Origin: Fimbriimonadaceae bacterium
Lineage (GTDB): Bacteria > Armatimonadota > Fimbriimonadia > Fimbriimonadales > Fimbriimonadaceae
NCBI GenBank assembly: GCA_026129685.1
Contig: JAHCHO010000005.1
Coordinates: forward strand, 248,001-312,000
Direction: 5' to 3'
Length of the DNA stretch: 64,000 bases
Shown here one piece after another: positions 39,019-56,316 of the stretch. Every line of letters begins with the position of its first letter. Positions within the stretch are counted from its first letter, which is position 1. A program made the translations under genes and the position numbers. The notes beneath the pieces are model-generated. The model was not told where the DNA came from. It saw nothing but the letters and a program-made list of their open reading frames with translations, and made no database searches.

Positions 39019-40107
39019 ATGGCGCGAAGAGATAGCTCACCCTGGTCGTTCCGTGTCGCCACCGTCTCGGGTATCCCGATTCGGATTCACTTCACGTTCC
39101 TGCTGTTCCTGGTCTGGCTCGGCTGGCCCAGCCGGGGTTCCGAGGGGCGCTTCGCCCTCTTGCTGGTGCCCGCGATCTTCTTCTGCGTGCTGCTGCACGA
39201 ACTGGGCCACGCCCTGACCGCGAAGCGCTTCGGAATCGGCATCAAGGACATCACCCTCTATCCGATCGGCGGAATCGCCATGCTCACCGGACGGCCCAAC
39301 GCGCGCCAGGAGTTCTGGATCACCGTCGCCGGCCCGGCGGTCAACCTCGTCATCGCGGGCATCCTGTTCCCGATCCTTCTGGCTCTGCGGCATCCTATGC
39401 CGAGCCTGGGGACCGACATGCAGGAGCAAGGGTTGCTGACCGCCCTGCTCGAGGCGAATCTGCTGCTCTTCGCCTTCAACATGATCCCCGCGTTCCCAAT
39501 GGACGGCGGCCGCATCCTCCGGTCGCTTCTCGCGATGCGCATGGACCCCGCCAAGGCGACCCGGATCGCGGGCGGGATCGGCCAAGCGTTGGCGTTCGTG
39601 ATCTTCCTCGCCGGGCTGCTGTTGCCGCACGCCGGCCTCATGCTGATCGCGGTGTTCGTGTTCCTCGGCGCCGGACAGGAAGTGGCGTCGTCCGTCGGGT
39701 TTTCGCTGGTCTCGAACCGGCGTGCGCTCGACGCAATGATGACCCAGTTCCGCACGATCCCCAGCGGCGCGTCCTTGGCGACCGCGTCCGGCTATCTGCT
39801 CGAGGGCTCGCAACACGATTTCCCGGTCGTCTGGGAAGGCGACGTGCAAGGGTTGCTGGCCCGGGACGACATTGTGCGAGGACTGACGACCGAAGGACCC
39901 GCCGCCTACGTCGCCGGGCTGATGCGACGCGAATACCGGACCGTTCTGCCCGACGCGCCCCTCGACGCGGTGATGGAGATGTTCACCCAGGGCGATCGGT
40001 CGCCGATCCTCGTGATGGTCGAGCGGAGACTCCTCGGCATGATCACCGCCGAGAACCTCAGCGAGTTCTTGATGCTCGAACAGGCGCGGGTTCGCCGTCT
40101 GGCCTAG
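39019..40107 (+). CDS. Site-2 protease family membrane metalloprotease with CBS domains
   Basis: A 362-residue intramembrane protease. Zinc ligands are His60 and His64 in LLHELGHAL (Glu61 catalytic) and Asp162 in FNMIPAFPMDGGR, the two S2P hallmarks. Around six membrane helices precede a C-terminal pair of CBS-like segments (about 240-355), the SpoIVFB/CBS-type class where the CBS part may sense nucleotides. The substrate is probably a membrane-bound regulator such as an anti-sigma factor, but none is adjacent. It starts eight bases after the glycosyltransferase stop. Confidence 0.92.
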   Translation: MARRDSSPWSFRVATVSGIPIRIHFTFLLFLVWLGWPSRGSEGRFALLLVPAIFFCVLLHELGHALTAKRFGIGIKDITLYPIGGIAMLTGRPNARQEFWITVAGPAVNLVIAGILFPILLALRHPMPSLGTDMQEQGLLTALLEANLLLFAFNMIPAFPMDGGRILRSLLAMRMDPAKATRIAGGIGQALAFVIFLAGLLLPHAGLMLIAVFVFLGAGQEVASSVGFSLVSNRRALDAMMTQFRTIPSGASLATASGYLLEGSQHDFPVVWEGDVQGLLARDDIVRGLTTEGPAAYVAGLMRREYRTVLPDAPLDAVMEMFTQGDRSPILVMVERRLLGMITAENLSEFLMLEQARVRRLA

Positions 40108-40892
40108 GCGGGGGCGTCGGCGGCCACGCTCTTCTTCCTCGCCCCCGACGGCACGTACTCCACGGCCTCGAGGTCGGGCATCTGGCTCAACTTGTCGCGG
40201 GCGTCGATCGGGTTCTCGATCACCTCGTCGAACACCACCCGGCCGTCCCGGAACCGGACGCTGCGCTTGCAGTGATGAGCGATATCGTCCTCGTGCGTGA
40301 CCAGTACGATCGTCTTGCCCTGCCGGTTCAACTCCTGGAACAGGGCCATAATCTCTTCGGAGGTGCGCGAGTCGAGGTTGCCCGTCGGCTCGTCGGCGAA
40401 GATCACCATCGGGTCGTTCACGATCGCCCGCGCGATCGCCACCCGCTGTTGCTGGCCGCCCGACATCTCGTTCGGCTTGTGGTGCGCGCGCTGGGCGAGC
40501 CCGACCTTCTCGATCGCCGCCATCGCCTGGGCGTGCCGGTTCCGCGAACCGGCGTAGATGAGGGGCAACTCGACGTTCTTCAGGGCCGACGTGCGCGGCA
40601 ACAGGTTGAACTGCTGAAACACGAAACCGATGTACTTGTTCCGAATCTCCGCGAGCTGGTTGTCGTCCAGGCCCGCCACGTTGCGGCCCGCCAGCACGAA
40701 CTTGCCCGCCGTCGGCCGGTCCAGGCACCCGAGCAGGTTCATGAAAGTGGACTTGCCCGAGCCCGACGGTCCCATGATGGCGAGGAACTCGCCCTCGTGG
40801 ATCGTTATCGAAACGTCGCGCAACGCGTGGACGACCATGTCGCCCATCACGTAATCCTTGGAAAGACCTTCGACTTCGAGAATCGGTTTCAC
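40104..40892 (-). CDS. MacB-type ABC transporter ATPase
   Basis: A 262-residue ATP-binding subunit with Walker [10 protein letters not shown], signature [14 protein letters not shown] and Walker [10 protein letters not shown], in the LolD/MacB/FtsE class. It would power the permease at 40889. A C-terminal extension of about 40 residues follows the usual end. Start GTG 40892 overlaps the permease stop as GTGA; an upstream in-frame extension is a shadow. It is the last gene of a leftward efflux operon (TolC, MacA, permease, ATPase), transcribed in that order. Confidence 0.9.
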
Positions 40893-42100
40893 TCGGACCT
40901 CAACGCCACCATCGGCTGCAAACGACTCGCCCGCATGGCGGGATAGAGGCCGAAGAAGATGCCCACCATGGCGGAAAAGCCGAACGCGGTGATAATGGCA
41001 GGCGTGTGGACCTCCGGCGGGACTTGTAGGGCTTTCGATATGGCGATCACGCTCGTCCATCCCAGGGCGATGCCCAGCACCCCGCCGACCAGGCACATCA
41101 CGACGCTCTCCAGCAGGAACTGCGAGAGGATGCTGCCGCGCTTCGCGCCGATGGCCTTGCGCAGGCCGATCTCACGGGTGCGTTCGGTGACCGACACGAG
41201 CATGATGTTCATAATGCCGATGCCTCCGACCAGAAGGGAGACGGACGCGATCCCCGCGAGCAGGATGCTCAGGAGGCGGGTTTGGGTCTCGATCTGCTCG
41301 ATCGCCTCGCCCTGGTTCATGACCCGGAAGAGCGGCTCGCCCATCGCCGAACCGCGCGTCTTCATCAGGGTGTCCTCGACCTGCCCCTGGGTGAGGATCA
41401 TCAGGTCGGTATGGGTCGCCTGGATCTGGATCATGTCCAGGTTGGTCTTGCCCATCAGGCGGGTCTTCGCCGTCGAAAGCGGGATGTAGATTTGGTCGTC
41501 CGGGTTCCACATGCCCGAACCGCCCTTGAAGTCCACGACCCCGACGACCTCGAAGTTCTGGTTCTTCAGGCGGATGTTGGTGCCGACCGCGTTGTTGCCG
41601 TCGTACAGCTCTTGCCAGACCTGGTAGCCGATGACCGCCTTCTGCGCCGAGAAAACCTCGTCCTCGTCCGTGTACCAACCGCCTTCCAGCATCTTGTTGA
41701 GGTTGCGGATGTCCTTCACGATCGGCAGCGCGCCGAACACCGAGGTCGAGTGGGTCTTGTTGCCGTGCTTCGCCATCACCCCCTGGCGCACCGTCCCCGT
41801 GATGTTCTTGATCAGGGGCACCTCGCGCTTGAGCATCTCGACGTCGCTGTCCCGCAGGGTCATGCCCGCGTCGGAACCCATGCTCATCCCGCCGCGCCGC
41901 CAGTTCGGGAAGACGGTGAGCAGGTTGGAGCCCATGATCTCGAGGTTCTCGATCGACTTCTTCTTCGTGCCCTCGCCGATGCCGATCATCGCGATAACCG
42001 ATCCGACGCCGATCACGACGCCGAGCATCGTGAGGAACGATCGCAATTTGTTGGCGACGATCGCCCGCAGCGCGCTCTCGAAGCTGTCCCAGGGCCTCAA
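40889..42100 (-). CDS. MacB/FtsX-type ABC permease
   Basis: A 403-residue inner-membrane permease. It has one N-terminal helix (LRSFLTMLGVVIGVGSVIAM), a periplasmic domain of about 210 residues, and three C-terminal helices including LVGGIGIMNIMLVSVTERTREIGLRKAIGA, the classic MacB coupling region. Start TTG 42100 overlaps the MacA stop as TTGA. Together with the neighbouring ATPase and MacA-like adaptor it would form a tripartite export machine with the TolC protein. Confidence 0.92.
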   Translation of the reverse strand: MRPWDSFESALRAIVANKLRSFLTMLGVVIGVGSVIAMIGIGEGTKKKSIENLEIMGSNLLTVFPNWRRGGMSMGSDAGMTLRDSDVEMLKREVPLIKNITGTVRQGVMAKHGNKTHSTSVFGALPIVKDIRNLNKMLEGGWYTDEDEVFSAQKAVIGYQVWQELYDGNNAVGTNIRLKNQNFEVVGVVDFKGGSGMWNPDDQIYIPLSTAKTRLMGKTNLDMIQIQATHTDLMILTQGQVEDTLMKTRGSAMGEPLFRVMNQGEAIEQIETQTRLLSILLAGIASVSLLVGGIGIMNIMLVSVTERTREIGLRKAIGAKRGSILSQFLLESVVMCLVGGVLGIALGWTSVIAISKALQVPPEVHTPAIITAFGFSAMVGIFFGLYPAMRASRLQPMVALRSE

Positions 42101-43875
42101 CGTCCGCCTCCGCCCGCCCCACCGCCGCGACCGGCGCCGCCGCCCGCGCCGCCTTGGCCGCTCGCGCCCAGACCCGCCGCCGAACGGTTGTTGGGTCCGG
42201 CGGGCCGGTTGCCGGTAAGACCGCCGCCCTGCATCGCCTCTTGCATCCGTTGCTGGCGCTCCTTCATTTCCGTCAGGTTGATCTCGGCGATCACGATCTC
42301 CTCGCCCACCTTCAGCCCTTCGAGCACCTCGACCCCGTCGTTGCCCGTTTCACCGAGCTTGACCTCGCGCTTCTCGGGCTTCTTCGGGTCGGCGGTCTTG
42401 ATCCGAACGTACGACTTTCCCTCCTCGCGCAGGATGGCCTGGCCGGGAATCATGATCACGTCGGGCTTCGAAAGCGTGATGAACTCGCAGTTGGCGTTCA
42501 GCCCCGGCATCAGCGCCACCTTGTCCGTCGGCAGGACCTTGACGCGGACCTTGACGGCGGTGATGTTGTTCGCGGTCTCCGCCGCCGGGTTCACCCGTTC
42601 CACTTTGCCCATGATGGGCTTGCCCGGAAACGCCTCGAGCGTGATGCGAACGTTCTGGCCCTGCCGGACCTGCGAAATATCGGCTTCGTCCACCGCGCAC
42701 TCGACGAACATCGTCGTGACGTCGCTGATCTGGGCGATGCTCGTCCCCTGGGCGAAGGTCGAAGTGCCCGCCGGGATGATCGTGCCCTCCTCGATGTACT
42801 TCATCGTCACGACGCCGTCGCGCGGGGCGACCACCGTCGTCGAATCCAGTTGGACCTTCGCGTTGTCGAGCGACACTTTGCTGCGCACCGAACCCGCCTC
42901 CGCCTGGGCGATCTCTTCGCGCCGCAACGAGGCTTGAATCTTCGCGTCCTTCGCGCGCTTCAAAGCGATCTCGGCCTGGGTGACGGCGCGCTTGGCCTCT
43001 TGCAGGCTCTTCTCCGAAATCGGCACCTGGCTCTTGTTGGCCTCCGCCTCCCGGAGGGCCGCTTGGGCGCGGAGCACGCTCAGCCGCTCCGCCTCCGCCA
43101 GCGCGCGAATCTCGGCCTCGAGGGTGTCGAGTTTCTGCCGCGCCGTCGAATAGGCGGACCTCGCCGCTTCCAGTTGCGAACGGGCGCGGTCCACCGCCGC
43201 CCCGGAGACGTAACCCGACTTCAGAAGGTCCTGCTGGCGTTCGAACTCGGCTTGGGCGGTGTCGAGTTCGGATTTCGTGCGGTTGAGCGCCCCGTCCGCG
43301 TCGCGCCGCATCTGGGGGGCAGTGACGTCGTGGAATCGACGCTGGGAGGCGCTCGCCGATTCGAGCGCCGCCCGGGCGGTCGCCACCCCGGCCTCGGAGA
43401 CCGCCGGTTTCGTGGCGTACTCCAGCTGGGCCCGTTGGAGCCGGAGACCAGCGGCCTCCAAGGCGGCTTCCGCGTTCTGGATATCGTTGTCGACGTTCGC
43501 CTCCGTCAGGTTCAAGTTCTGGCGGGCGGCCGTCGCGCGGGACGTGGCGGAACGGACGTCGGCGGCGGCTTGATCGTACAGCGCCTGGGTGTCCCGAGGG
43601 TCGATGACCGCGATCAGGTCGCCCGCCTTCACGCGGGTCCCCTCGTCGACCGCAAGCTTCGTCACGATGCCGCCCGCCTTCGACTTGACGTCCACCTGGG
43701 TGAGCGCCTTGAGCACTCCCGGGGCGTTGTTGGACCGAATCAACTCGGCCTTGGCCACCGGTGCATACCGGTACTCGATTTCGGCCTCGCCCTCGCCGCC
43801 TCTCATCTTGAGGACGGCCCAGCCGATGCCGCCCACGACGGCCACGCCGATGATGCCAACGATCGCCTTGTTCAT
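42097..43875 (-). CDS. MacA/HlyD-type periplasmic adaptor
   Basis: A 592-residue adaptor, long for MacA (about 370). It has an N-terminal anchor, a split biotinyl-lipoyl domain (TKLAVDEGTRVKAGDLIAVI and, after the hairpin, VAPRDGVVTMKYIEEGTI), a very long alpha-helical coiled-coil hairpin (about 100-340) and beta-barrel and membrane-proximal domains. The C terminus is a low-complexity Gln/Gly/Arg tail (GGGAGRGGGAGGGGR). The long hairpin suggests a reach across a deep periplasm to TolC. Co-translated with the permease. Confidence 0.88.
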   Translation of the reverse strand: MNKAIVGIIGVAVVGGIGWAVLKMRGGEGEAEIEYRYAPVAKAELIRSNNAPGVLKALTQVDVKSKAGGIVTKLAVDEGTRVKAGDLIAVIDPRDTQALYDQAAADVRSATSRATAARQNLNLTEANVDNDIQNAEAALEAAGLRLQRAQLEYATKPAVSEAGVATARAALESASASQRRFHDVTAPQMRRDADGALNRTKSELDTAQAEFERQQDLLKSGYVSGAAVDRARSQLEAARSAYSTARQKLDTLEAEIRALAEAERLSVLRAQAALREAEANKSQVPISEKSLQEAKRAVTQAEIALKRAKDAKIQASLRREEIAQAEAGSVRSKVSLDNAKVQLDSTTVVAPRDGVVTMKYIEEGTIIPAGTSTFAQGTSIAQISDVTTMFVECAVDEADISQVRQGQNVRITLEAFPGKPIMGKVERVNPAAETANNITAVKVRVKVLPTDKVALMPGLNANCEFITLSKPDVIMIPGQAILREEGKSYVRIKTADPKKPEKREVKLGETGNDGVEVLEGLKVGEEIVIAEINLTEMKERQQRMQEAMQGGGLTGNRPAGPNNRSAAGLGASGQGGAGGGAGRGGGAGGGGR

Positions 43876-43882
43876 AGAGTGT

Positions 43883-45172
43883 CTATTCGCCCGGGATCGG
43901 CCTGCCCGTCGCCAGACGGAGCCGGATTTCGGAAACGTACGTGTCGTAGATCGCTTCGATGTGGTTCGATTCCGCCGTCACGAGGCTCACCTGGGCGGTC
44001 AGAACCGCCAGCAGGTCGGACGCGCCCTTTCGGAAGCTCCCGTCGGCGGCCTCGTAGTTGAGCTTGGCCGCCTGGAAAGCAAGGTCCGAGGCCTTGAGTC
44101 GGCGCACCGCCTGCGTGTACGCCTTGTAGGCCGACTCGATCTCGGCGCTTGCCGTGCGTCGGGCCTGCTCCAAGTCGCGCTCCGAGGCGTCGCGGCTGAG
44201 ACGTATCTCCCGGGCCGCCTCCTTCGAGCGATTCCCGTCGTACAGCGGAACGGAGACGAGGGCGGTTAGGTTCGTGGTTTGTTGCACCGTCGGACCAAAG
44301 CGCTTCTCGTAGTTGGCGTCCACCGTCCAAGTGACGCCGGATTCGCGCAGGGCTCTCTTGAAGCTGAAGTCGGTCGCCTCGATCTGAAGCGCGCGCGCCT
44401 GGAGATCGGGGCGCTCGGCGAGGCCCGCCGCCAGCGCTTGGCCAAGCGGGGCCGGATCGGCGGCGATCGGCGTGGAGACGTCCTCCAACGACGGCAGGGG
44501 CCGATCCTCGGGCCAGGCGATCAGGGCGCGCAAGGTGGCCTCCGCATTGTTCACCCCGTTCTCCGTGTTGAGCAGGCCGACCTCCGCGTTCAAGAGGTCG
44601 GCCCGTGCCTGAAGCTCTTCCTTTTCGGCGAGATCGCGGACCTGGATGCGCCGCACCACCTGATCGAGGGTGGTTTGGGCTCGTTTCACCGTGGACTGGG
44701 CGACGTCCCTCAGCTTGCGGGAGCGCAACACTTCGAAGTACGCCTCATGAACGCGCACGAGCGTGCTGCGCAACGTCTGGAGGCTGTTCAGCTCCTGGGC
44801 CCGGAAACTGGCGCGGCTGGAGAGGAACCCGAACTGCCGTTGGCCCGCGTCCAGAAGCCGCCAGTTCGCCTGGATGCCGGTGGTGAAGTCGTCGGTCTTG
44901 AACGTCGAGCGAAGCCCCGTCTGCACCTCCTGGTTACGGTAGGTGTAACCCGCGTCGGGGGTGACGGTGGGAAGAAACCCCGCGCGCGCCTGGTTCACCC
45001 GGCTGCGCGCCGCTTGCACGTCGAGGGCGGCCGCCTGAATGGTGCCGTTGTTCTGGCGGGCCAGTTTCAGGGCTTCCTCGAGCGAAAGCGTGTCCTGAGC
45101 GGACGCGAGGACGCCGGACGCACCCGCGACCAGAACCGACGCGAGACGGAAGAACGCGAACTTGGGAGCCAT
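43883..45172 (-). CDS. TolC-family outer-membrane efflux protein
   Basis: A 429-residue outer-membrane channel protein with an N-terminal signal peptide (about 1-25, ending VLASAQ) and two long helical repeats with typical coiled-coil content (TLRSTLVRVHEAYFEV, QVRDLAEKEELQARADLL and their mirror in the second half). TolC trimers form the exit duct for tripartite pumps. I start at ATG 45172, which has GGAG four bases upstream and a clean signal peptide; ATG 45202 is the alternative. First gene of the efflux operon; the adaptor begins seven bases after it. Confidence 0.9.
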   Translation of the reverse strand: MAPKFAFFRLASVLVAGASGVLASAQDTLSLEEALKLARQNNGTIQAAALDVQAARSRVNQARAGFLPTVTPDAGYTYRNQEVQTGLRSTFKTDDFTTGIQANWRLLDAGQRQFGFLSSRASFRAQELNSLQTLRSTLVRVHEAYFEVLRSRKLRDVAQSTVKRAQTTLDQVVRRIQVRDLAEKEELQARADLLNAEVGLLNTENGVNNAEATLRALIAWPEDRPLPSLEDVSTPIAADPAPLGQALAAGLAERPDLQARALQIEATDFSFKRALRESGVTWTVDANYEKRFGPTVQQTTNLTALVSVPLYDGNRSKEAAREIRLSRDASERDLEQARRTASAEIESAYKAYTQAVRRLKASDLAFQAAKLNYEAADGSFRKGASDLLAVLTAQVSLVTAESNHIEAIYDTYVSEIRLRLATGRPIPGE

Positions 45173-45293
45173 GGCGCTCCACACCTTACCGTTGAGGTTC
45201 ATCGTTAGCCGGTCCAAGGACTCAACACTTTCGCCAAGCGTTGCTACGCATCCTTGTACCCGGATGTTCGCTCCCGATGCGTCCGAAGATTCG

Positions 45294-46355
45294 CTAGCCG
45301 GCTTCCGCGGCCTTTTCGCCGACCGCCACCGCCGGCACCGCCGATCCCGGCTCGAGCGCTTTGGCGTCGCCGAAAGCCTTCGCGAGTTGCGGGACGGCCC
45401 GCATCGCGTCGATCACTTCGACCGGGATCGCCATCACCACCGTGTTGGAGGCCGAGGACCCGAGGCCGTCCAGCGTCTGCAACGTTCGCAGTTGGAGCGC
45501 ACCGGGCGAGGCCAGCATCGTGTGGGCCGCGGCCGCGAGGTTCGCCGCCGCCTCCCGGTCGCCTTCCGACTTCGTGATGTTCGCCCGCTTCTCGCGCTCG
45601 GCCGAGGCCTGCCGGGCCATGACGCGCTTGAGGTCCTCTGGCAACTCGATGTCCTGAATCCGGATGGCCGCGACTTCGAGTCCCCATCCGTCCGTTTCCG
45701 TCTCGACCATCGCCTGGATTCGCTCGCCGATGATCTCCCGTTCGTTCAGAATTTCGTCCAGGCTCATGTTGCCGATCACGTCGCGCAACGCCGTCTGCGC
45801 GTACTGGCGGATGGCGTGCCGATAGTCCTGGACCCGGATCACCGCGTCGGCGGGGTTGTTCACCCGCATGAAGATGACGCCGTCGATCGAGACGGGAACG
45901 TTATCCTTCGTGATCGCCTGCTGGCGGGGGATGTCGAGCGTCACGATCCGCGTGTCCACCAGCCGAACGTTGTCGAAAACCGGGATGACGAAGAACGGCC
46001 CGGGACCCTTCACCGCGTGGTACTTGCCAAGCCGAAAGACCAGCGCCTTCTCCCACTGTGCGGCGATCCGGATGGTCGACGCGATAAGCGAACCCAGCAC
46101 CACCGTTCCCGCCATCCGCAGCGCCGACCCCCCCGGATCGGCCTCGAGCGTCTTGCCGAACAGGAGGTAGGCCGCCGCGACGGACAGCAGCATGATGACG
46201 GTGGGAAGGGGATTCGAAAAACGCATCGAACGCTCCGAGGGCAACGGAGGCGGGCTGGGGCGACGGACCGAACTCACGGAAATCCCCTGCGTCTGCGCGA
46301 ACTGCGCCAACGCGGGTGGAAGTCCGGTGAAATCGTTGTCCGAGGAATCCGCCAT
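45294..46355 (-). CDS. SPFH/stomatin-family membrane protein
   Basis: A 353-residue protein of the stomatin/prohibitin (SPFH) group. An N-terminal Pro/Ser-rich segment (about 1-45) is followed by two hydrophobic stretches (about 50-95) and the SPFH domain: QWEKALVFRLGKYHAVKGPG, then PVSIDGVIFMRVNNPADAV, and RDVIGNMSLDEILNEREIIG. The C-terminal coiled region (EREKRANITKSEGDREAAANL) ends in a hydrophobic patch. Such proteins organise membrane microdomains and sometimes partner an NfeD protease; none is adjacent. It has its own good promoter. Confidence 0.9.
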   Translation of the reverse strand: MADSSDNDFTGLPPALAQFAQTQGISVSSVRRPSPPPLPSERSMRFSNPLPTVIMLLSVAAAYLLFGKTLEADPGGSALRMAGTVVLGSLIASTIRIAAQWEKALVFRLGKYHAVKGPGPFFVIPVFDNVRLVDTRIVTLDIPRQQAITKDNVPVSIDGVIFMRVNNPADAVIRVQDYRHAIRQYAQTALRDVIGNMSLDEILNEREIIGERIQAMVETETDGWGLEVAAIRIQDIELPEDLKRVMARQASAEREKRANITKSEGDREAAANLAAAAHTMLASPGALQLRTLQTLDGLGSSASNTVVMAIPVEVIDAMRAVPQLAKAFGDAKALEPGSAVPAVAVGEKAAEAG

Positions 46356-46378
46356 CGCTCGCCTGCCGGGGCCCTTCC

Positions 46379-46407
46379 ATTCTATGCGAATTCACCTCGT
46401 TTGGCAA
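46379..46407 (-). promoter_or_regulatory. Sigma-70 type promoter for the SPFH gene
   Basis: On the minus strand, TTGCCA (46407-46402), 17 bases, then TAGAAT (46384-46379) forms a near-consensus promoter reading leftward, with a predicted leader of about 17 bases before the ATG at 46355. The divergent WecA-like gene starts at 46479. Confidence 0.75.
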
Positions 46408-46478
46408 GGACCGCGCGAAAGACGTCGGGACCGAGCAACGCGTACGGACGGACGGACGTCCGGTATCGTGGGAACCGC

Positions 46479-47570
46479 GTGACGTTCGGACTCTTCTGGC
46501 TCGCCGACGCGAGCGGCAAAGTGTTGCAGGGATTCCGCGCCCCGCTTTTCGCGGGCGTGATCGCCCTCGCCGTCACCTACCTGTTGACCCCCTTCGTCCG
46601 AAAGGTGGCGATCCGAAAGGGAGCGGTGGACGATCCGAAGCGGGACGATCGGCGCGTGCACACCGAACCCACCCCCCGCTGGGGCGGGCTCGCGATTTAC
46701 GCGGGGATCGCGGCCGCCTTGCTGATCGTCCTGCCCTTCGCCTATCCCATCAATCCCTATCCCGTCTATCTGATCGGGTTGCTCCTCGTGGGCGCGGGCA
46801 TCGTGGTGATGGGCGCCCTCGACGACCTCTACCAGTTCAGCGCCCTCAAGCAGCTCCTGATCGTGCTGGCCTTCGCCGTCGCGATCCAGTTCTTTCAGGG
46901 ACCGGGGGGCGCGGTTCGGGTCGGGGGCATCGGCTACGCGGAGCGCTGGATCCCCTTCGGGGTCTGGGCCGTCCCCATCACCGCGATCTACATCTTCGTC
47001 GTGACCAAGACCATGGACACGATCGACGGCATCGACGGCCTGACCGCCGGCATCGCCGCGATCGCCGGCGCCACCCTCTCCGTCGTGGCGACCCAAGAGG
47101 TCCTCCAGATGCTGGAGTTTCGGCAGCACTACCAAGGACCGCTCGGGCCGGAGAAGTTCGTGATCGGCGAACAACCGCGCGTCGCCCTCGTCGCCGCGGC
47201 GATCGCCGGCTCCGCGATCGGATTCCTTCGCCACAACTACAACCCGGCCAAGATTTTCATGGGGACCGGAGGGGCGCAGCTCCTCGGTTTCCTCCTCGCG
47301 TGCATCAGCATCGTCGGAGCGATGAAAACCGCTACGGCCGTCGCGATTTTCATACCGATATTTGTCTTCGGAGTCCAGATTTTCGACGCGTTCTTCGTGG
47401 TCGTTCGCCGTCTGCGCAGCGGATCGCCGATCACCCAGGCGGACAAGCGTCACCTGCACCACACGCTCCTGCGCAAGGGGCTGTCCCAACGCCAAGCGGT
47501 GTGGGTGCTGTATCTGGCCGCGCTCGCGTTGAGCGGGGTGCTCCTGCTGGTGGTGAAATACTTTGGCTAA
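46479..47570 (+). CDS. Undecaprenyl-phosphate sugar-1-phosphate transferase (WecA/MraY family)
   Basis: A 363-residue polytopic enzyme that loads a sugar-1-phosphate, usually GlcNAc-1-P, onto undecaprenyl phosphate at the cytoplasmic face. About ten helices are present. Mg-binding Asp pairs appear in MGALDDLYQ and in TMDTIDGIDGLTAG, and the C-terminal KRHLHHTLLRKG carries the WecA-type HxH. Start GTG 46479. It overlaps the WecB-like gene by 8 bases, supporting a GlcNAc-based glycan pathway. WecA versus TagO cannot be separated here. Confidence 0.9.
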   Translation: MTFGLFWLADASGKVLQGFRAPLFAGVIALAVTYLLTPFVRKVAIRKGAVDDPKRDDRRVHTEPTPRWGGLAIYAGIAAALLIVLPFAYPINPYPVYLIGLLLVGAGIVVMGALDDLYQFSALKQLLIVLAFAVAIQFFQGPGGAVRVGGIGYAERWIPFGVWAVPITAIYIFVVTKTMDTIDGIDGLTAGIAAIAGATLSVVATQEVLQMLEFRQHYQGPLGPEKFVIGEQPRVALVAAAIAGSAIGFLRHNYNPAKIFMGTGGAQLLGFLLACISIVGAMKTATAVAIFIPIFVFGVQIFDAFFVVVRRLRSGSPITQADKRHLHHTLLRKGLSQRQAVWVLYLAALALSGVLLLVVKYFG

Positions 47571-49653: not shown

Positions 49654-50187
49654 TTGGGCAATCCCGGCCCGAACTACGCCGGGACGCGGCACAACGTCGG
49701 TTTCGAAGTGGTCGAAGAACTGGCCAGGCGGCACCGCCTCCCCCTGAACCGCAGCAAGCATTCGGGCCTGTGCGGGTCGGGAGCGATCGAGGGAACGCCC
49801 GTCGTGTTGCTCAAACCCCTCACCTACATGAACCTGAGCGGACGTTCCGTCGTCGCCCACGCTCGCGACCATGAACTCGCCCCCGACCGAATCCTCGTCG
49901 TGGCCGACGACCTTGACCTACCCACCGGCAAGGTGAGGATGCGTCCAAAGGGTAGCGCGGGCGGGCACAACGGCCACAAGTCCGTGATCGAGAAGCTGGG
50001 CACCACCGAGTACCCGCGCCTTCGCATCGGGATCGGGTGCGAGGGTCCCGCCATCGACCACGTGCTGAGCCGCTTCGATCCCGAGGAGCGTCCCCTCATC
50101 CGCGACGCGGTCGCTCGCGCCGCCGACAGCGTCGAAGTGCTGTTGCGCGACGGCCTCGAGAAGGCGATCTCGTTCGCGAACGGCTGA
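49654..50187 (+). CDS. pth: Peptidyl-tRNA hydrolase, with an apparent frameshift at its start
   Basis: Catalytic core of Pth, which frees tRNA from prematurely released peptidyl-tRNA. GNPGPNYAGTRHNVGF (catalytic His), YMNLSG, VADDLDLPTG and GGHNGHKS are all present to the normal C terminus. The usual N-terminal strand (LIVGL) is encoded in frame just upstream (about 49642-49656), but there is no ATG, GTG or TTG to start it; the first canonical start is TTG 49654, which would delete the strand. An ATG at 49622 with AGGAAG four bases before it reads MDHGRSG and stops. One extra G in the GG pair at 49635-49636 would restore MDHGREWLIVGLGNPG. Thus the gene is either frameshifted, shifted by sequencing error, or starts at a rare codon. 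Confidence 0.85.
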   Translation: MGNPGPNYAGTRHNVGFEVVEELARRHRLPLNRSKHSGLCGSGAIEGTPVVLLKPLTYMNLSGRSVVAHARDHELAPDRILVVADDLDLPTGKVRMRPKGSAGGHNGHKSVIEKLGTTEYPRLRIGIGCEGPAIDHVLSRFDPEERPLIRDAVARAADSVEVLLRDGLEKAISFANG

Positions 50188-50233
50188 GACCCCGGGCGGC
50201 AGGATTCCGAAGGCGCGCGACGTATTGGTGGGT

Positions 50234-53200
50234 ATGCGACGCCCCCTCCTTCGGTTCGGTTGGGCGGCGTGCCTGTGCCTCGCCGCCCTGTCCAGGGCCC
50301 AAACCGACGAGGAGTCGCTCGTCGAGTACCGGAAGTTGCGCGCTTTGGTGTCTCCGGACGAAATCGCCCGGACGTACCGCGAGGTGGACGCCTTCGGCGG
50401 GCGGTTCCCCGGCTCCGAGGGCGAACGTCGCGCGATGGACTACGCGGAGGAGCGGTTCCGTGCCCTCGGTTACCAGGACATCGTCCGCGAGCCCTTCAAG
50501 GTCACCGTCCCCGACCCGGAGGCGACCGGTCGCTTCGAAACGAAGGGCGGCCGCCTCACGATCCTGCCGATGTGGCCGAACCTCGTTCGGACCTCGACCT
50601 GCGACGTGGAGGGGCCGGTCGTCTATGTGGGCAGGGGAAGCCTGGAAGAGCTGAACGGCAAGACGATCGACGGCGCGATCGTCCTGCTGGAGGTCGGCGG
50701 CGGCGCGAACTGGAAGGCGGCCGCCGCACTTGGGGCCAAGGCCATCCTCTTCCTCGAGCCGGCGGAAACCTCGCGCGCCGAAGTGGACCGCACCTACCTG
50801 AACGTCCCCATCCGAACGCCCCGCTTCTGGGTTCCCATCCAAAACGCCAAGTTGGCCCTCGACGCCGCCCGAAACGGGGACCGTGCCCGCATCGTGTGTC
50901 GTCAGGACTGGGTCGTGCGGGAGTCCTGCAACCTCGTGGTTAACCGCCCCGCCGGCGACCCGAAGTTCCGGCGAGAACGGGTCGTGCTCTTCGGGTACCT
51001 CGACTCGATGAGCGTCGTGCCGAAGTTGGCGCCGGGCGCGGAGGCGATCGGCAACCTCGCGCTCATGCTGGAAACCGCCCGCATTTGGCGCGACCGCTCC
51101 CATCGGCGGCCGATCCAGTACGTGGTCTCGGGGGCGCACTCCTTGGCCCTTCAGGGCGCCCGCGAGTTCGTCGCCAAGCGCTTGGAGTCCACCGACAACG
51201 AGCAGATTCTTACCCTCACCCTCGACATCACCGGCGGCAGCCGGGCCCTCGGCTCCTACGCCGAGGGCTACTTCTACGACTACCGTTGGGAGGCGATGGA
51301 CCCGGTTCGGCAGATGAGCCGGACCCTGCGCCTCCACGCCGATCAATACGCGAAGGTCGAGGGCGTCGCCATCCCGAGGATGATCCTGACCGACGCCGTC
51401 AACAACTCTGACAACCGGACCTGGAAGAACAACATCCCCGGCCGCTTCGCGTTCGACTGCGAGCCGTTCACCATGGGCGGCTACAACGCCCTGACCCTCG
51501 CCACCATCGAGGACAGCCGAGAGCGAGTGGACACCCCCTTCGACCGGCTCGACCGGGTGGACCTGGCCAACGTCGCCCGCCAGGCGCGAACCCTCACCGT
51601 CATGCTGTGGCACGTCCTCAACGACCCGACGGAGGCGCGCGGCGACTCCCGCTTCCGGGTCGCGCTGACGCCGACCGGGCCGAGCCGCATGCGGTTGACC
51701 GGCGGCTTCGCGCGGATCGAGGGCCGGGTCGTCGAGTTCGACCCCAACCAGAGCTTCATCCCCGACATCTCGCAACCGAACTCCCTCGTCGTTAAGATCG
51801 ACAAACTGCCGTCCTACATGGGGGTGCGGGCCAACCTGATCGCGATGACCGAAGGCGACAAGGCGGAGTTTCGCCTCGAGGGACTCGTCCCGATCAACGC
51901 CTACCCCTGGTGGATGCGCGACCGCATCACCGTCAGCGCGTTTCGGGTCAACCCGGCCTCGGGCGAGATCGAGCGCGCGATCCAACAAGGGTCTTTCGCT
52001 TCGGAGGAGTATCACAGCCGCTTCGAACTCAAAACCTCGTACAAGTCCACCTCGCTGGTCGTGTTCCCGTGCGTCGCCATCGACCTCTTCGACCTGGTGG
52101 ACCCGAAACGGCTGGTGGCCCTCCAGTTCTTCAACGTGTTCGACGCCCGCGACGACGGCCCGCCCCTCGACTACGGCTTTTTCAAGGCGTGGAAGCAGAA
52201 CCTCCAGACCAGCGAGGTCGAGGACACCGCCGTGCTCTTCACCCCGCCCGAACTGCGCTGGAAGCTGCTCATGTCGAGCGACTTCAGCCCGTCCCTCGTT
52301 CTGGTCAACTCGACCAAAGACGACCCGGACGGGGCGGGCTACCTGGCCCCCGGGGCGAGTGCGCAGGGCCGGCCGATCGGACGGGCGACGATCACCCTGG
52401 GCGGTCGCATGCCGAACCTTCCGCTCCAGGTCGCTCGAGACATCGTCTCGATCAACCAGGATCGAATGGACCGGTTCGCCAAGTACCGGATCGTGGGGCA
52501 AGGGGTCGACGAACTCCAATCTCAGGCGCGAGACGAGATGCGCCTCGCCGAAGAGGCGGAAGGGACCAAGACCTGGAGCGCGGTGAAGCGCCACGCCCGC
52601 GCCGCGTGGGGGCTGGCCCTGCGCGCCCACCCGGTGCTCCAGAAGACGGCGGGCGACGTCGTGAACGGAGTCCTCTTCTACCTGTTCCTGCTCATCCCGT
52701 TCAGCTACTACGTCGAGCGGCTCGTGTTCGGAAACCGGATGCTGGTCCGCCAGTTGCTCGTCAGCATCGCGATCTTTATCGGGTCCTTCCTGCTGTTGCG
52801 CTACATCCATCCCGCGTTCGAGATCGTGGAAAACCCCTTCATGATCTTCATCGCCTTCGTGATGGGGGTCCTCAGCCTGATCGTGATCGCCTTCATCCTC
52901 GGCAAATTCGAGAGTTCGCTCAAAACCCTGAAGCAGACGCAGAGCGGCATTCACGAGGTGGACATCGGGCGCACCAGCGTGGCGATGGCCGCGTTCAACC
53001 TGGGCATCAGCAACATGCGACGCCGCAAGGCCCGGACGTTCCTCACCACCCTGACCCTCGTGGTCATGACGTTCATCGTCCTGAGCTTCACCTCGATCGT
53101 GCCCGAGTTGGCCTTCAACGAAGTCGGAACCGACTTCGTTGGGAGTTACCCCGGCGTGCTTGTGCGCGGGCCGGGCTTGGAGCCGCTCGAATCGTCCGTG

Positions 53201-54742
53201 TACAAGACGCTCGAGAACGAGTACCACGGGAAGGCCACCATCGTCCGCCGGGCCTGGTACTACGGAGCCGACATCCAGGAGCAGAGCAACCTCACCCTGA
53301 GCCGCGCCGATCGGTCCTTCGACGCCCGTGGCCTCGTCGGGCTCGATCCCGGCGAGGCGAAGGTGACCCGCGCCGACCGCGCCCTGCTTCCGGGGGGCCG
53401 CTGGTTCGAACCGGGCGAGGGCAACGTCGTCATCCTGCCGCAGCCCGTCGCGGACCAACTGAAAGTGGCGCGCGAAGACGTGGGCAAGGCCTCGGTCCTC
53501 TTCGCGGGCGTGCCCTACACCGTGATCGGCATTCTCGACACGTCGGAACTGCGCGGCATCACCGACCTCGACGGCGAGGTGTTCCTCCCCGCCGACTTCA
53601 CCCTTTCGAACCGCATGCAGTCCGAGAACCAGAGCCTGACCGAGGACTTCCGCGAGTTCATCCGCCTTGACCCCGCCACCGTCTTCTTCATCCCGGCGGA
53701 TCGGGCCTTGGCCCTCGGCGCGGACATCCGGTCGGTCGCGGTCGGTTTCGCCGATCCGAACGCGACGAGGCCCGCTCTCAAGAAGCTCATGCCGCGTCTG
53801 ACCATGAACCTCTACGCGGCCGTACCCAACGAAAGCGACCCGAAGGGTCCCCTTCAAGTACGTCGGTTCAGCGCCTTCCACCGGTCCAAGGGCACCGGTC
53901 TCGGTCTCGTGATCGTGCAGATGCTCATCGCGGCCGTCTTCGTGTTCAACACGATGGTGGCGAGCGTGTTCGAGCGCAAACGCGAAATCTCGATCTTCAG
54001 CTCCATCGGCCTCGCGCCGAACCACATCGCGATGCTGTTCTTCGCCGAGTCCCTCGTGTACGGGGTTCTCGGCGCGGTCTTCGGCTACTTTGCCGCCCAG
54101 ATCGCCGCCAAGGTCATCGTGGCCACCGGCTCGTTCCAGGGCCTCTACCTCAACTTCAGTTCGGTGTCGGCCGTCCTGTCCGCCGGAATCGTGATGGCGA
54201 TCGTCTTGCTCAGCACGATCTACCCGGCGAAAGTCGCGAGCAAGATCGCCGCCCCCGCTTTGAACGAGGCGATGTGGGACACCGACCCGGACGGCGACGA
54301 ATGGGACCTGCAACTCCCCTTCAGCGTCAACGCGAACGAGGCGATGCCGCTCGTCGAGTTCCTAGGCGAGTGGTTCCGGGCGTACGAGGAGTACACGATC
54401 GGTACCTTCGTCACGAGCGAAACGACCCTCTACCGGCGCGCCTCCGAGTTCGGAGACGCCTTCTGCACCGAGACCACCGCGTGGGTCGCGCCGTACGACC
54501 TCGGCGTGTCCCAGCGCCTGGTGCTGTCGGCCGTCCCGACCGCCCTCCCCGACGTGGTGCAGCTTCGGCTTCATCTGAGCCGTCTCTCCGGAGAACCCGA
54601 GAACTGGGTGAACGTGAACCGCCGGTTCCTGACGAACCTGCGCAAGCAGTTCCTCACTTGGCGGACCCTCGAACAGAGCCAGCGCGCCGAATACGGTGTC
54701 CGCGCGTCCGTCACCTTCGCCGCCGAGCCCGTCCCCGCCTGA
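50234..54742 (+). CDS. Pseudo-M28 peptidase fused to FtsX/MacB-type permease
   Basis: A single 1502-residue gene. After a signal peptide (about 1-25), residues about 30-460 align by eye to an M28 aminopeptidase: PGSEGERRAMDYAEERF, FGYLDS, ALMLETARIW, SGAHSLALQGAREF and LDITGG. The metal ligands are changed: the His of the HxDS motif is Tyr255, the DDN Asp is missing in GAEAIGN, and the Glu-Glu pair is His302-Ser303, so it is probably catalytically dead. From about 770 onward there are several membrane helices, then a permease core with NLGISNMRRRKARTFLTTLT, an extracytoplasmic domain, and closing helices (FNTMVASVFERKREIS, FAESLVYGVLGAVFG) of FtsX/MacB style. No ATPase gene is adjacent. The role is unknown; a sensor or substrate-binding permease is one idea. 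Confidence 0.82.
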   Translation: MRRPLLRFGWAACLCLAALSRAQTDEESLVEYRKLRALVSPDEIARTYREVDAFGGRFPGSEGERRAMDYAEERFRALGYQDIVREPFKVTVPDPEATGRFETKGGRLTILPMWPNLVRTSTCDVEGPVVYVGRGSLEELNGKTIDGAIVLLEVGGGANWKAAAALGAKAILFLEPAETSRAEVDRTYLNVPIRTPRFWVPIQNAKLALDAARNGDRARIVCRQDWVVRESCNLVVNRPAGDPKFRRERVVLFGYLDSMSVVPKLAPGAEAIGNLALMLETARIWRDRSHRRPIQYVVSGAHSLALQGAREFVAKRLESTDNEQILTLTLDITGGSRALGSYAEGYFYDYRWEAMDPVRQMSRTLRLHADQYAKVEGVAIPRMILTDAVNNSDNRTWKNNIPGRFAFDCEPFTMGGYNALTLATIEDSRERVDTPFDRLDRVDLANVARQARTLTVMLWHVLNDPTEARGDSRFRVALTPTGPSRMRLTGGFARIEGRVVEFDPNQSFIPDISQPNSLVVKIDKLPSYMGVRANLIAMTEGDKAEFRLEGLVPINAYPWWMRDRITVSAFRVNPASGEIERAIQQGSFASEEYHSRFELKTSYKSTSLVVFPCVAIDLFDLVDPKRLVALQFFNVFDARDDGPPLDYGFFKAWKQNLQTSEVEDTAVLFTPPELRWKLLMSSDFSPSLVLVNSTKDDPDGAGYLAPGASAQGRPIGRATITLGGRMPNLPLQVARDIVSINQDRMDRFAKYRIVGQGVDELQSQARDEMRLAEEAEGTKTWSAVKRHARAAWGLALRAHPVLQKTAGDVVNGVLFYLFLLIPFSYYVERLVFGNRMLVRQLLVSIAIFIGSFLLLRYIHPAFEIVENPFMIFIAFVMGVLSLIVIAFILGKFESSLKTLKQTQSGIHEVDIGRTSVAMAAFNLGISNMRRRKARTFLTTLTLVVMTFIVLSFTSIVPELAFNEVGTDFVGSYPGVLVRGPGLEPLESSVYKTLENEYHGKATIVRRAWYYGADIQEQSNLTLSRADRSFDARGLVGLDPGEAKVTRADRALLPGGRWFEPGEGNVVILPQPVADQLKVAREDVGKASVLFAGVPYTVIGILDTSELRGITDLDGEVFLPADFTLSNRMQSENQSLTEDFREFIRLDPATVFFIPADRALALGADIRSVAVGFADPNATRPALKKLMPRLTMNLYAAVPNESDPKGPLQVRRFSAFHRSKGTGLGLVIVQMLIAAVFVFNTMVASVFERKREISIFSSIGLAPNHIAMLFFAESLVYGVLGAVFGYFAAQIAAKVIVATGSFQGLYLNFSSVSAVLSAGIVMAIVLLSTIYPAKVASKIAAPALNEAMWDTDPDGDEWDLQLPFSVNANEAMPLVEFLGEWFRAYEEYTIGTFVTSETTLYRRASEFGDAFCTETTAWVAPYDLGVSQRLVLSAVPTALPDVVQLRLHLSRLSGEPENWVNVNRRFLTNLRKQFLTWRTLEQSQRAEYGVRASVTFAAEPVPA

Positions 54743-56230: not shown

Positions 56231-56316
56231 TGGTGCGCGGGAAAAGACTCGAACTTTCACGCCTTGTGGGCACTACCACCTCAAGGTAGCGTGTCTACCA
56301 ATTTCACCACCCGCGC
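56231..56316 (-). tRNA. tRNA-Leu (anticodon GAG)
   Basis: On the minus strand a full tRNA folds: acceptor GCGCGGG/CCCGCGC, a D-arm with GTAGACAC, anticodon stem CTACC/GGTAG with loop TTGAGGT, a long variable arm of the leucine type (GCC...GGC), and a T-arm GAAAG with TTCGAGT. The anticodon GAG (plus-strand 56280-56282) reads CUC and CUU. The discriminator A and an encoded CCA (56231-56233) are present. Class II size (86 bases) and long variable arm support leucine. Confidence 0.94.

Follow-up and report, generated by a model that had tools for sequence, protein, structure and literature searches.

Does a protein that joins an aminopeptidase-like domain to an ABC-type permease still cut peptides, and with which ATPase does it work? 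This question is raised by a gene in a 64,000-nucleotide stretch of a Fimbriimonadaceae genome (hereafter, the window). The fusion gene occupies 50234..54742 (+) and encodes 1502 amino acids in one uninterrupted open reading frame, with an ATG at 50234 and a stop at 54742, and this frame is the window's best-scoring coding frame in a codon-usage model. The intact frame, Pfam and phmmer matches and a structural model all bear out the preliminary description of a single protein with M28-like and FtsX/MacB-like parts. A 1405-aa open frame runs antisense to the gene (50096-54313, −); since the codon model picks the sense frame, the antisense one has probably arisen as a side effect of GC-rich codons. 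A search for promoters and terminators gave none above chance.

The chain starts with an N-terminal signal peptide recognized by eye (MRRPLLRFGWAACLCLAALSRAQ, approximately residues 1-23; 50234..50302, +), followed by an M28-like domain that carries an inserted PA-type domain (residues 24-465; 50303..51628, +; AlphaFold2 model, VIA/Foldseek and Pfam). The secondary structure of the model then outlines a beta-rich extracytoplasmic region with no assigned family (approximately residues 470-770; 51641..52543, +). Family-averaged hydropathy revealed seven transmembrane (TM) helices, namely three extra ones at residues 809-827, 837-855, and 871-889 (52658..52900, +) and then the four of the FtsX core. 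This odd number of linker helices fits an N-terminal domain lying outside and an FtsX core starting inside. The FtsX/MacB-type core (residues 913-1343; 52970..54262, +; Pfam and VIA) consists of TM1, a long MacB-like periplasmic domain between TM1 and TM2, and TM2-4; within it lies the coupling-helix segment ERKREISIFSSIGLAP (residues 1247-1262; 53972..54019, +). A cytosolic C-terminal domain, delimited by VIA and conservation, completes the protein (residues 1354-1484; 54293..54685, +).

Several comparisons assigned the N-terminal domain to the M28 fold. In a phmmer search, residues 56-336 matched the M28 aminopeptidase 2ek8 (E 3e-8). Pfam M28 matched 15 and Pfam PA 11 of 17 N-terminal relatives; the window's own member gave no Pfam M28 match because its N-terminal half is too divergent. 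The M28 and FtsX/MacB_PCD profiles that had been suggested for searching found FtsX and MacB_PCD in the window protein and M28 in its relatives. An AlphaFold2 model of residues 24-830, built from 17 relatives, had a mean pLDDT of 85.5 and matched the M28 aminopeptidases 2ek8, 2anp, and 1amp with a VIA Z of about 28, with an rmsd of 2.6 over 270 residues to 1amp/2anp; transferrin receptor and GCPII were the next-ranked Foldseek matches after the M28 aminopeptidases. The general M28 scaffold is thus kept, as had been proposed by eye. The fusion shares both this fold and the register of the active-site loops with the Aeromonas/Vibrio aminopeptidase (AAP), Bacillus YwaD, and 2ek8, and its PA-type insertion resembles that of YwaD/2ek8-like enzymes.

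Unlike these enzymes, every fusion member examined has altered zinc ligands and an altered general base. We set the ligand register by alignment with six genuine M28 enzymes from the same phylum and counted residues in 57 homologues, complete or nearly so, drawn from across the phylum. The position of the first zinc-ligand His is Tyr255 in the window protein (50996..50998, +; Y in 50, F in 6, and N in 1 of the 57), so that the GHxD of M28 enzymes reads [Y/F]xD. The bridging Asp position is Glu or Asp after a one-residue deletion (Glu270, 51041..51043, +; E in 43, D in 14). The Glu-Glu pair of the enzymes is His-Phe in the family and His302-Ser303 in the window protein: His302 (51137..51139, +), at the position of the catalytic general-base Glu, is His in 57/57, and position 303, equivalent to Glu152, is Phe in 44/57. 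Asp331 (51224..51226, +) retains an M28 zinc-ligand Asp in all 57, the last zinc-ligand His position is Asp433 (51530..51532, +; D in 54, N in 2, E in 1), and Glu410 (51461..51463, +) is a family-specific Glu conserved in 57/57. In place of the enzymes' His/Asp/Glu/Asp/His set, the family therefore has Y/F255, E/D270, mostly F303, D331, and D433, the equivalents of His97, Glu152, and His256 being Tyr/Phe, mostly Phe, and Asp, respectively. H302, D257, D331, E410, and D437 are invariant in all 57 aligned sequences. A further dozen or so members are more divergent and in part fragmentary; wherever their sequences cover the pocket they fit this pattern, with two exceptions: in one, residue 255 is still His, and another has no Glu410.

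The preliminary description had each expected ligand changed, which is right for Tyr255, for His302-Ser303, and for the final His, now Asp433. The bridging position is still acidic; the Asp of the DDN motif, described as lost, aligns with Glu270, is acidic in 57/57, and was thus substituted. Asp331 is retained, and the preliminary description likewise had the Asp of the LDITG motif remaining. The full two-zinc set of the enzymes is missing from every family member examined. Judged by the alignment, the pocket is under strong constraint and the family is not decaying, and by its ligands and general base the M28-like domain would fall outside the M28 enzyme family. His302 alone is no proof of inactivity, since the title of PDB entry 2anp describes a Glu151-to-His mutant, made in the Aeromonas enzyme, as functional (Bzymek 2005, cited in PMC3426542); the pseudo-enzyme reading rests mostly on the three other lost ligands.

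These substitutions also bear on a different reading, in which a remade site binds a single metal through His302, Glu270, Asp331, Asp433, and possibly Glu410, and the domain serves as another kind of hydrolase or as a metal or amino-acid sensor. The residues concerned stand at active-site positions of M28 and show little or no variation among the 57 homologues, a pattern not expected from plain decay, and the title of 2anp points the same way. However, both known zinc sites lose ligands, with Phe at the Glu152 position in 44/57 and the His97 and His256 equivalents gone, and we consider a remade metal site an unlikely but serious alternative. The earlier suggestion that a former peptidase became a binding or sensing module accordingly stands in part: the enzyme's metal set is gone family-wide and binding is the most likely function, but His302 and Asp433 could form a metal site.

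Pseudo-M28 ectodomains are also known from eukaryotic membrane complexes. Among PDB sequences, nicalin matched the pseudo-M28 core best (E 2.5e-11), on a par with YwaD and AAP. Nicalin and the fusion have an ungapped D-x5-P-x-L-x2-GA segment in common, and nicalin has equivalents of Glu410, Arg429, and Asp437 of the fusion. Pfam Nicastrin matched 11 of 44 fusion members weakly, and nicastrin itself was not significant against the fusion (E ~1). Nicalin and nicastrin are pseudo-M28 ectodomains of membrane complexes, as the fusion's cap would be, but they are not fused to an ABC permease; transferrin receptor is likewise a non-enzymatic M28-fold ectodomain, in its case of a eukaryotic receptor with no transporter core. 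Common ancestry with nicalin is, at the level of these alignments, a lead and not a result. The analogy to E333 of nicastrin as a substrate receptor is disputed (PMC6551803), and for that reason we did not use it as proof.

The membrane half has the features of a type VII ABC permease. Pfam FtsX matched residues 1225-1338 (E 6e-15) and Pfam MacB_PCD residues 1011-1128 (E 2e-7), the order of elements is TM1-PCD-TM2-3-4, and the coupling segment contains E1247, R1248, I1252, G1259, L1260, and P1262, all invariant in the 57 homologues. The better parts of the membrane model matched HrtB, YtrF, MacB, LolC/E, and FtsX by VIA; since this model was poor overall (pLDDT 70, pTM 0.42), the fit of the core rests on sequence plus partial structure. 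The fusion scored far below the NCBIfam cut-offs for the LolC/E permease equivalog (12.7 bits vs 362) and the MacB equivalog (8.4 bits vs 966), and its chain has no N-terminal ATPase. The C-terminal domain matched START/Bet v1 folds modestly in the model (VIA Z 8.6-8.9 over 113-120 residues), with strongly conserved W, R, P, D, and G residues.

A four-TM FtsX core, a MacB-like periplasmic domain, a coupling segment between TM2 and TM3, and a separate LolD-like ATPase, here a candidate partner, are common to this system and the type VII ABCs MacB, LolCDE, FtsEX, BceAB, YbbAP-TesA, and HrtBA. Unlike them, the fusion carries a pseudo-hydrolase in the same chain, ahead of three extra TM helices, and its partner permease has no periplasmic domain. 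YbbAP also couples a type VII ABC to a hydrolase fold (PMC12646458), and BceB shows a related asymmetry within one chain (PMC5985334).

The homologous fusions sought after the preliminary description turned out to be widespread. An N-terminal alignment search placed the family in about 190 of 291 Armatimonadota genomes, presence being our own count of matches with E below 1e-40, weaker ones being ordinary M28 enzymes or fragments; the C-terminal domain alone gave a similar distribution. All 40 loci taken outside Fimbriimonadales hold an open frame of 1510-1814 aa. The fusion thus belongs to a conserved system of the phylum and is not one odd protein. A single-protein search of genome contigs returned two near relatives only, and a plasmid search with the fusion found just short FtsX matches covering at most 12% of the query.

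Outside Fimbriimonadales, the fusion mostly leads a same-strand operon whose downstream genes encode a 680-aa membrane protein, a protein of about 330 aa, a PqqD-like protein, an FtsX permease of about 200 aa without a periplasmic domain, and a LolD-like ATPase. Among the loci outside Fimbriimonadales, the 680-aa gene is present in 32 and the short permease in 24, with the ATPase close by. In some lineages (L125, L128, L130, and L131), the genes for the short permease and the ATPase directly precede the fusion instead (L128 4209-5881). Within Fimbriimonadales the fusion gene stands alone, with no conserved neighbours. In two relatives, a gene for a prepilin-like protein precedes it by 37-61 bases (L035:6363-7232 and L036:6573-7439); we rejected this gene as a conserved partner, as it is a common gene type that recurs in these genomes.

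The 680-aa family has about nine TM helices and no clear Pfam or NCBIfam assignment, and it adjoins the fusion in most of the Armatimonadota loci retrieved (for example, L104:10340-12406, +). It is weakly OPT-like: Pfam OPT matched 1 of 12 members (1.5e-5), sub-threshold OPT matches fell in the same region of the protein in G000 (this genome), G010, G019, and G020, and a PDB profile search gave no match. The partner of about 270-330 aa is soluble and of no known family (L141:8028-8828, L104:12448-13425); it has two similar-looking halves around a W-x-G-x-x-x-x-x-P motif, and its Cys pairs occur mainly outside Fimbriimonadales. PDB profile searches with the ~330-aa partner and with the C-terminal domain of the fusion returned chance-like matches only (ribosomal proteins and short stretches of designed proteins).

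Four partner genes were found together in this genome at C16:70027-72489 (L141 8028-10490), encoding the partner of about 270 aa, the PqqD-like protein, the short FtsX permease, and the LolD-like ATPase; the OPT-like 680-aa gene lies at C14:95438-97411, 200 kb from the fusion. The fusion and its partner genes are unlinked here. Their occurrence is nonetheless correlated within the window's own family, where 21 of 85 genomes encode the fusion. Of these 21, 20 also have the ~330-aa partner, which is absent from all 64 others; for the short permease, counted at E below 1e-50, the figures are 19/21 and 0/64. The genomes that break the pattern, G165 and G010, are drafts. The corresponding Fisher p values of 1e-18 and 5e-17 ignore relatedness and are descriptive only. 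A single genus comprises 9 genomes with the set and 11 without it, and among the 37 same-family genomes searched for the 680-aa gene, it was found solely alongside the fusion. The partner genes were lost together with the fusion within this family.

The solitary position of the gene in Fimbriimonadales would suit a stand-alone envelope protein or receptor that works independently of any ATPase and uses its FtsX part just as an anchor. Such a scaffold is very unlikely, given that the coupling segment and TM core are strictly conserved and that the ATPase and the short permease share the fusion's operon elsewhere and were lost along with it here.

No ATPase lies beside the fusion in the window, in agreement with the preliminary description, which had also hinted at the window's MacB-type ATPase (40107-41096) as a partner. 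It is the nearest ATPase on the same contig and belongs to the same broad ABC family; however, its gene is clustered with those for a MacB permease, an HlyD adaptor, and an outer-membrane factor of its own, and it is 44-49% identical to the operon ATPases vs 69-73% for the C16 ATPase. We regard this pairing as extremely improbable and discarded it on account of the ATPase's own cluster and low identity. Operon and co-occurrence instead single out the C16 ATPase as a candidate and probably the cognate partner of the fusion.

The operon ATPase most resembles LolD (E 3e-71), which raises the alternative that the system is the phylum's Lol-like machinery for extracting lipoproteins or lipids, with the pseudo-peptidase as its cap. 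Type VII ABCs do extract molecules from the membrane (PMC12646458), and START/Bet v1 folds, which the cytosolic domain resembles, bind lipids. The operon ATPase, however, scored 239.6 vs a cut-off of 307.75 for the LolD equivalog, the fusion likewise fell below the LolC/E cut-off, and many related genomes within the family lack the system; we consider a Lol-like role improbable.

Together, these results lead us to propose an asymmetric type VII ABC machine, present across Armatimonadota, in which the fusion is probably the larger permease subunit and its pseudo-M28 cap probably binds a ligand without cutting it. The fusion would pair with the short FtsX permease and two copies of the LolD-like ATPase in a physical complex. 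Binding and hydrolysis of ATP would set the transmembrane stalk in motion, and the stalk would pass this movement on to the MacB-like domain and the large cap outside the membrane. Type VII ABCs typically do mechanical work outside the membrane and do not pump through it (PMC5985334; PMC12646458); such mechanotransmission, with no substrate carried through the membrane, is likely here because of the invariant coupling segment, the ATPase supplied in trans, and the core fold. Two features would be unusual: the cap is a peptidase that has probably lost its activity, and the asymmetry is extreme, with some 780 cap residues plus a MacB-like domain on one permease and no outer domain on its counterpart. 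The remodelled, conserved pocket most likely accommodates the end of a peptide, or a ligand like it, uncut; the M28 fold, the PqqD-like partner, and the weak OPT similarity of the 680-aa protein each give a hint of a peptide or protein end. We more tentatively entertain, as a possible but doubtful extension, a bacterial counterpart of nicalin/nicastrin: a phylum-wide type VII ABC whose cap recognizes uncut peptides, with PqqD-like and OPT-like partners and possibly a one-metal pocket.

A full-text search of open papers found no description of the fusion or the six-gene system. This system is real and conserved, a variant of the type VII ABC systems that includes a pseudo-M28 subunit; its mechanism beyond this architecture we infer. 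The six-gene envelope system is retained across most of a little-studied phylum, and it unites mechanotransmission ABC machines with pseudo-peptidase ectodomains such as those of nicalin and nicastrin, themes that are usually apart. Through its operon and co-loss pattern, the orphan fusion becomes one of a set of parts that can be co-expressed and tested, and the pocket poses a simple question: metal or none, bind or cut.

Other features of the window were also recorded. A complete MacA/MacB/outer-membrane-factor-type cluster, comprising an ATPase, a MacB_PCD permease, an HlyD adaptor, and an OEP protein, occupies 40107-45217 (−). An 802-aa open reading frame at 45162-47570 (+) contains a glycosyltransferase-4 domain only at residues 538-719, and its true start may be internal. 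The sole tRNA found in the window is a tRNA-Leu (GAG) at 56231-56316 (−).
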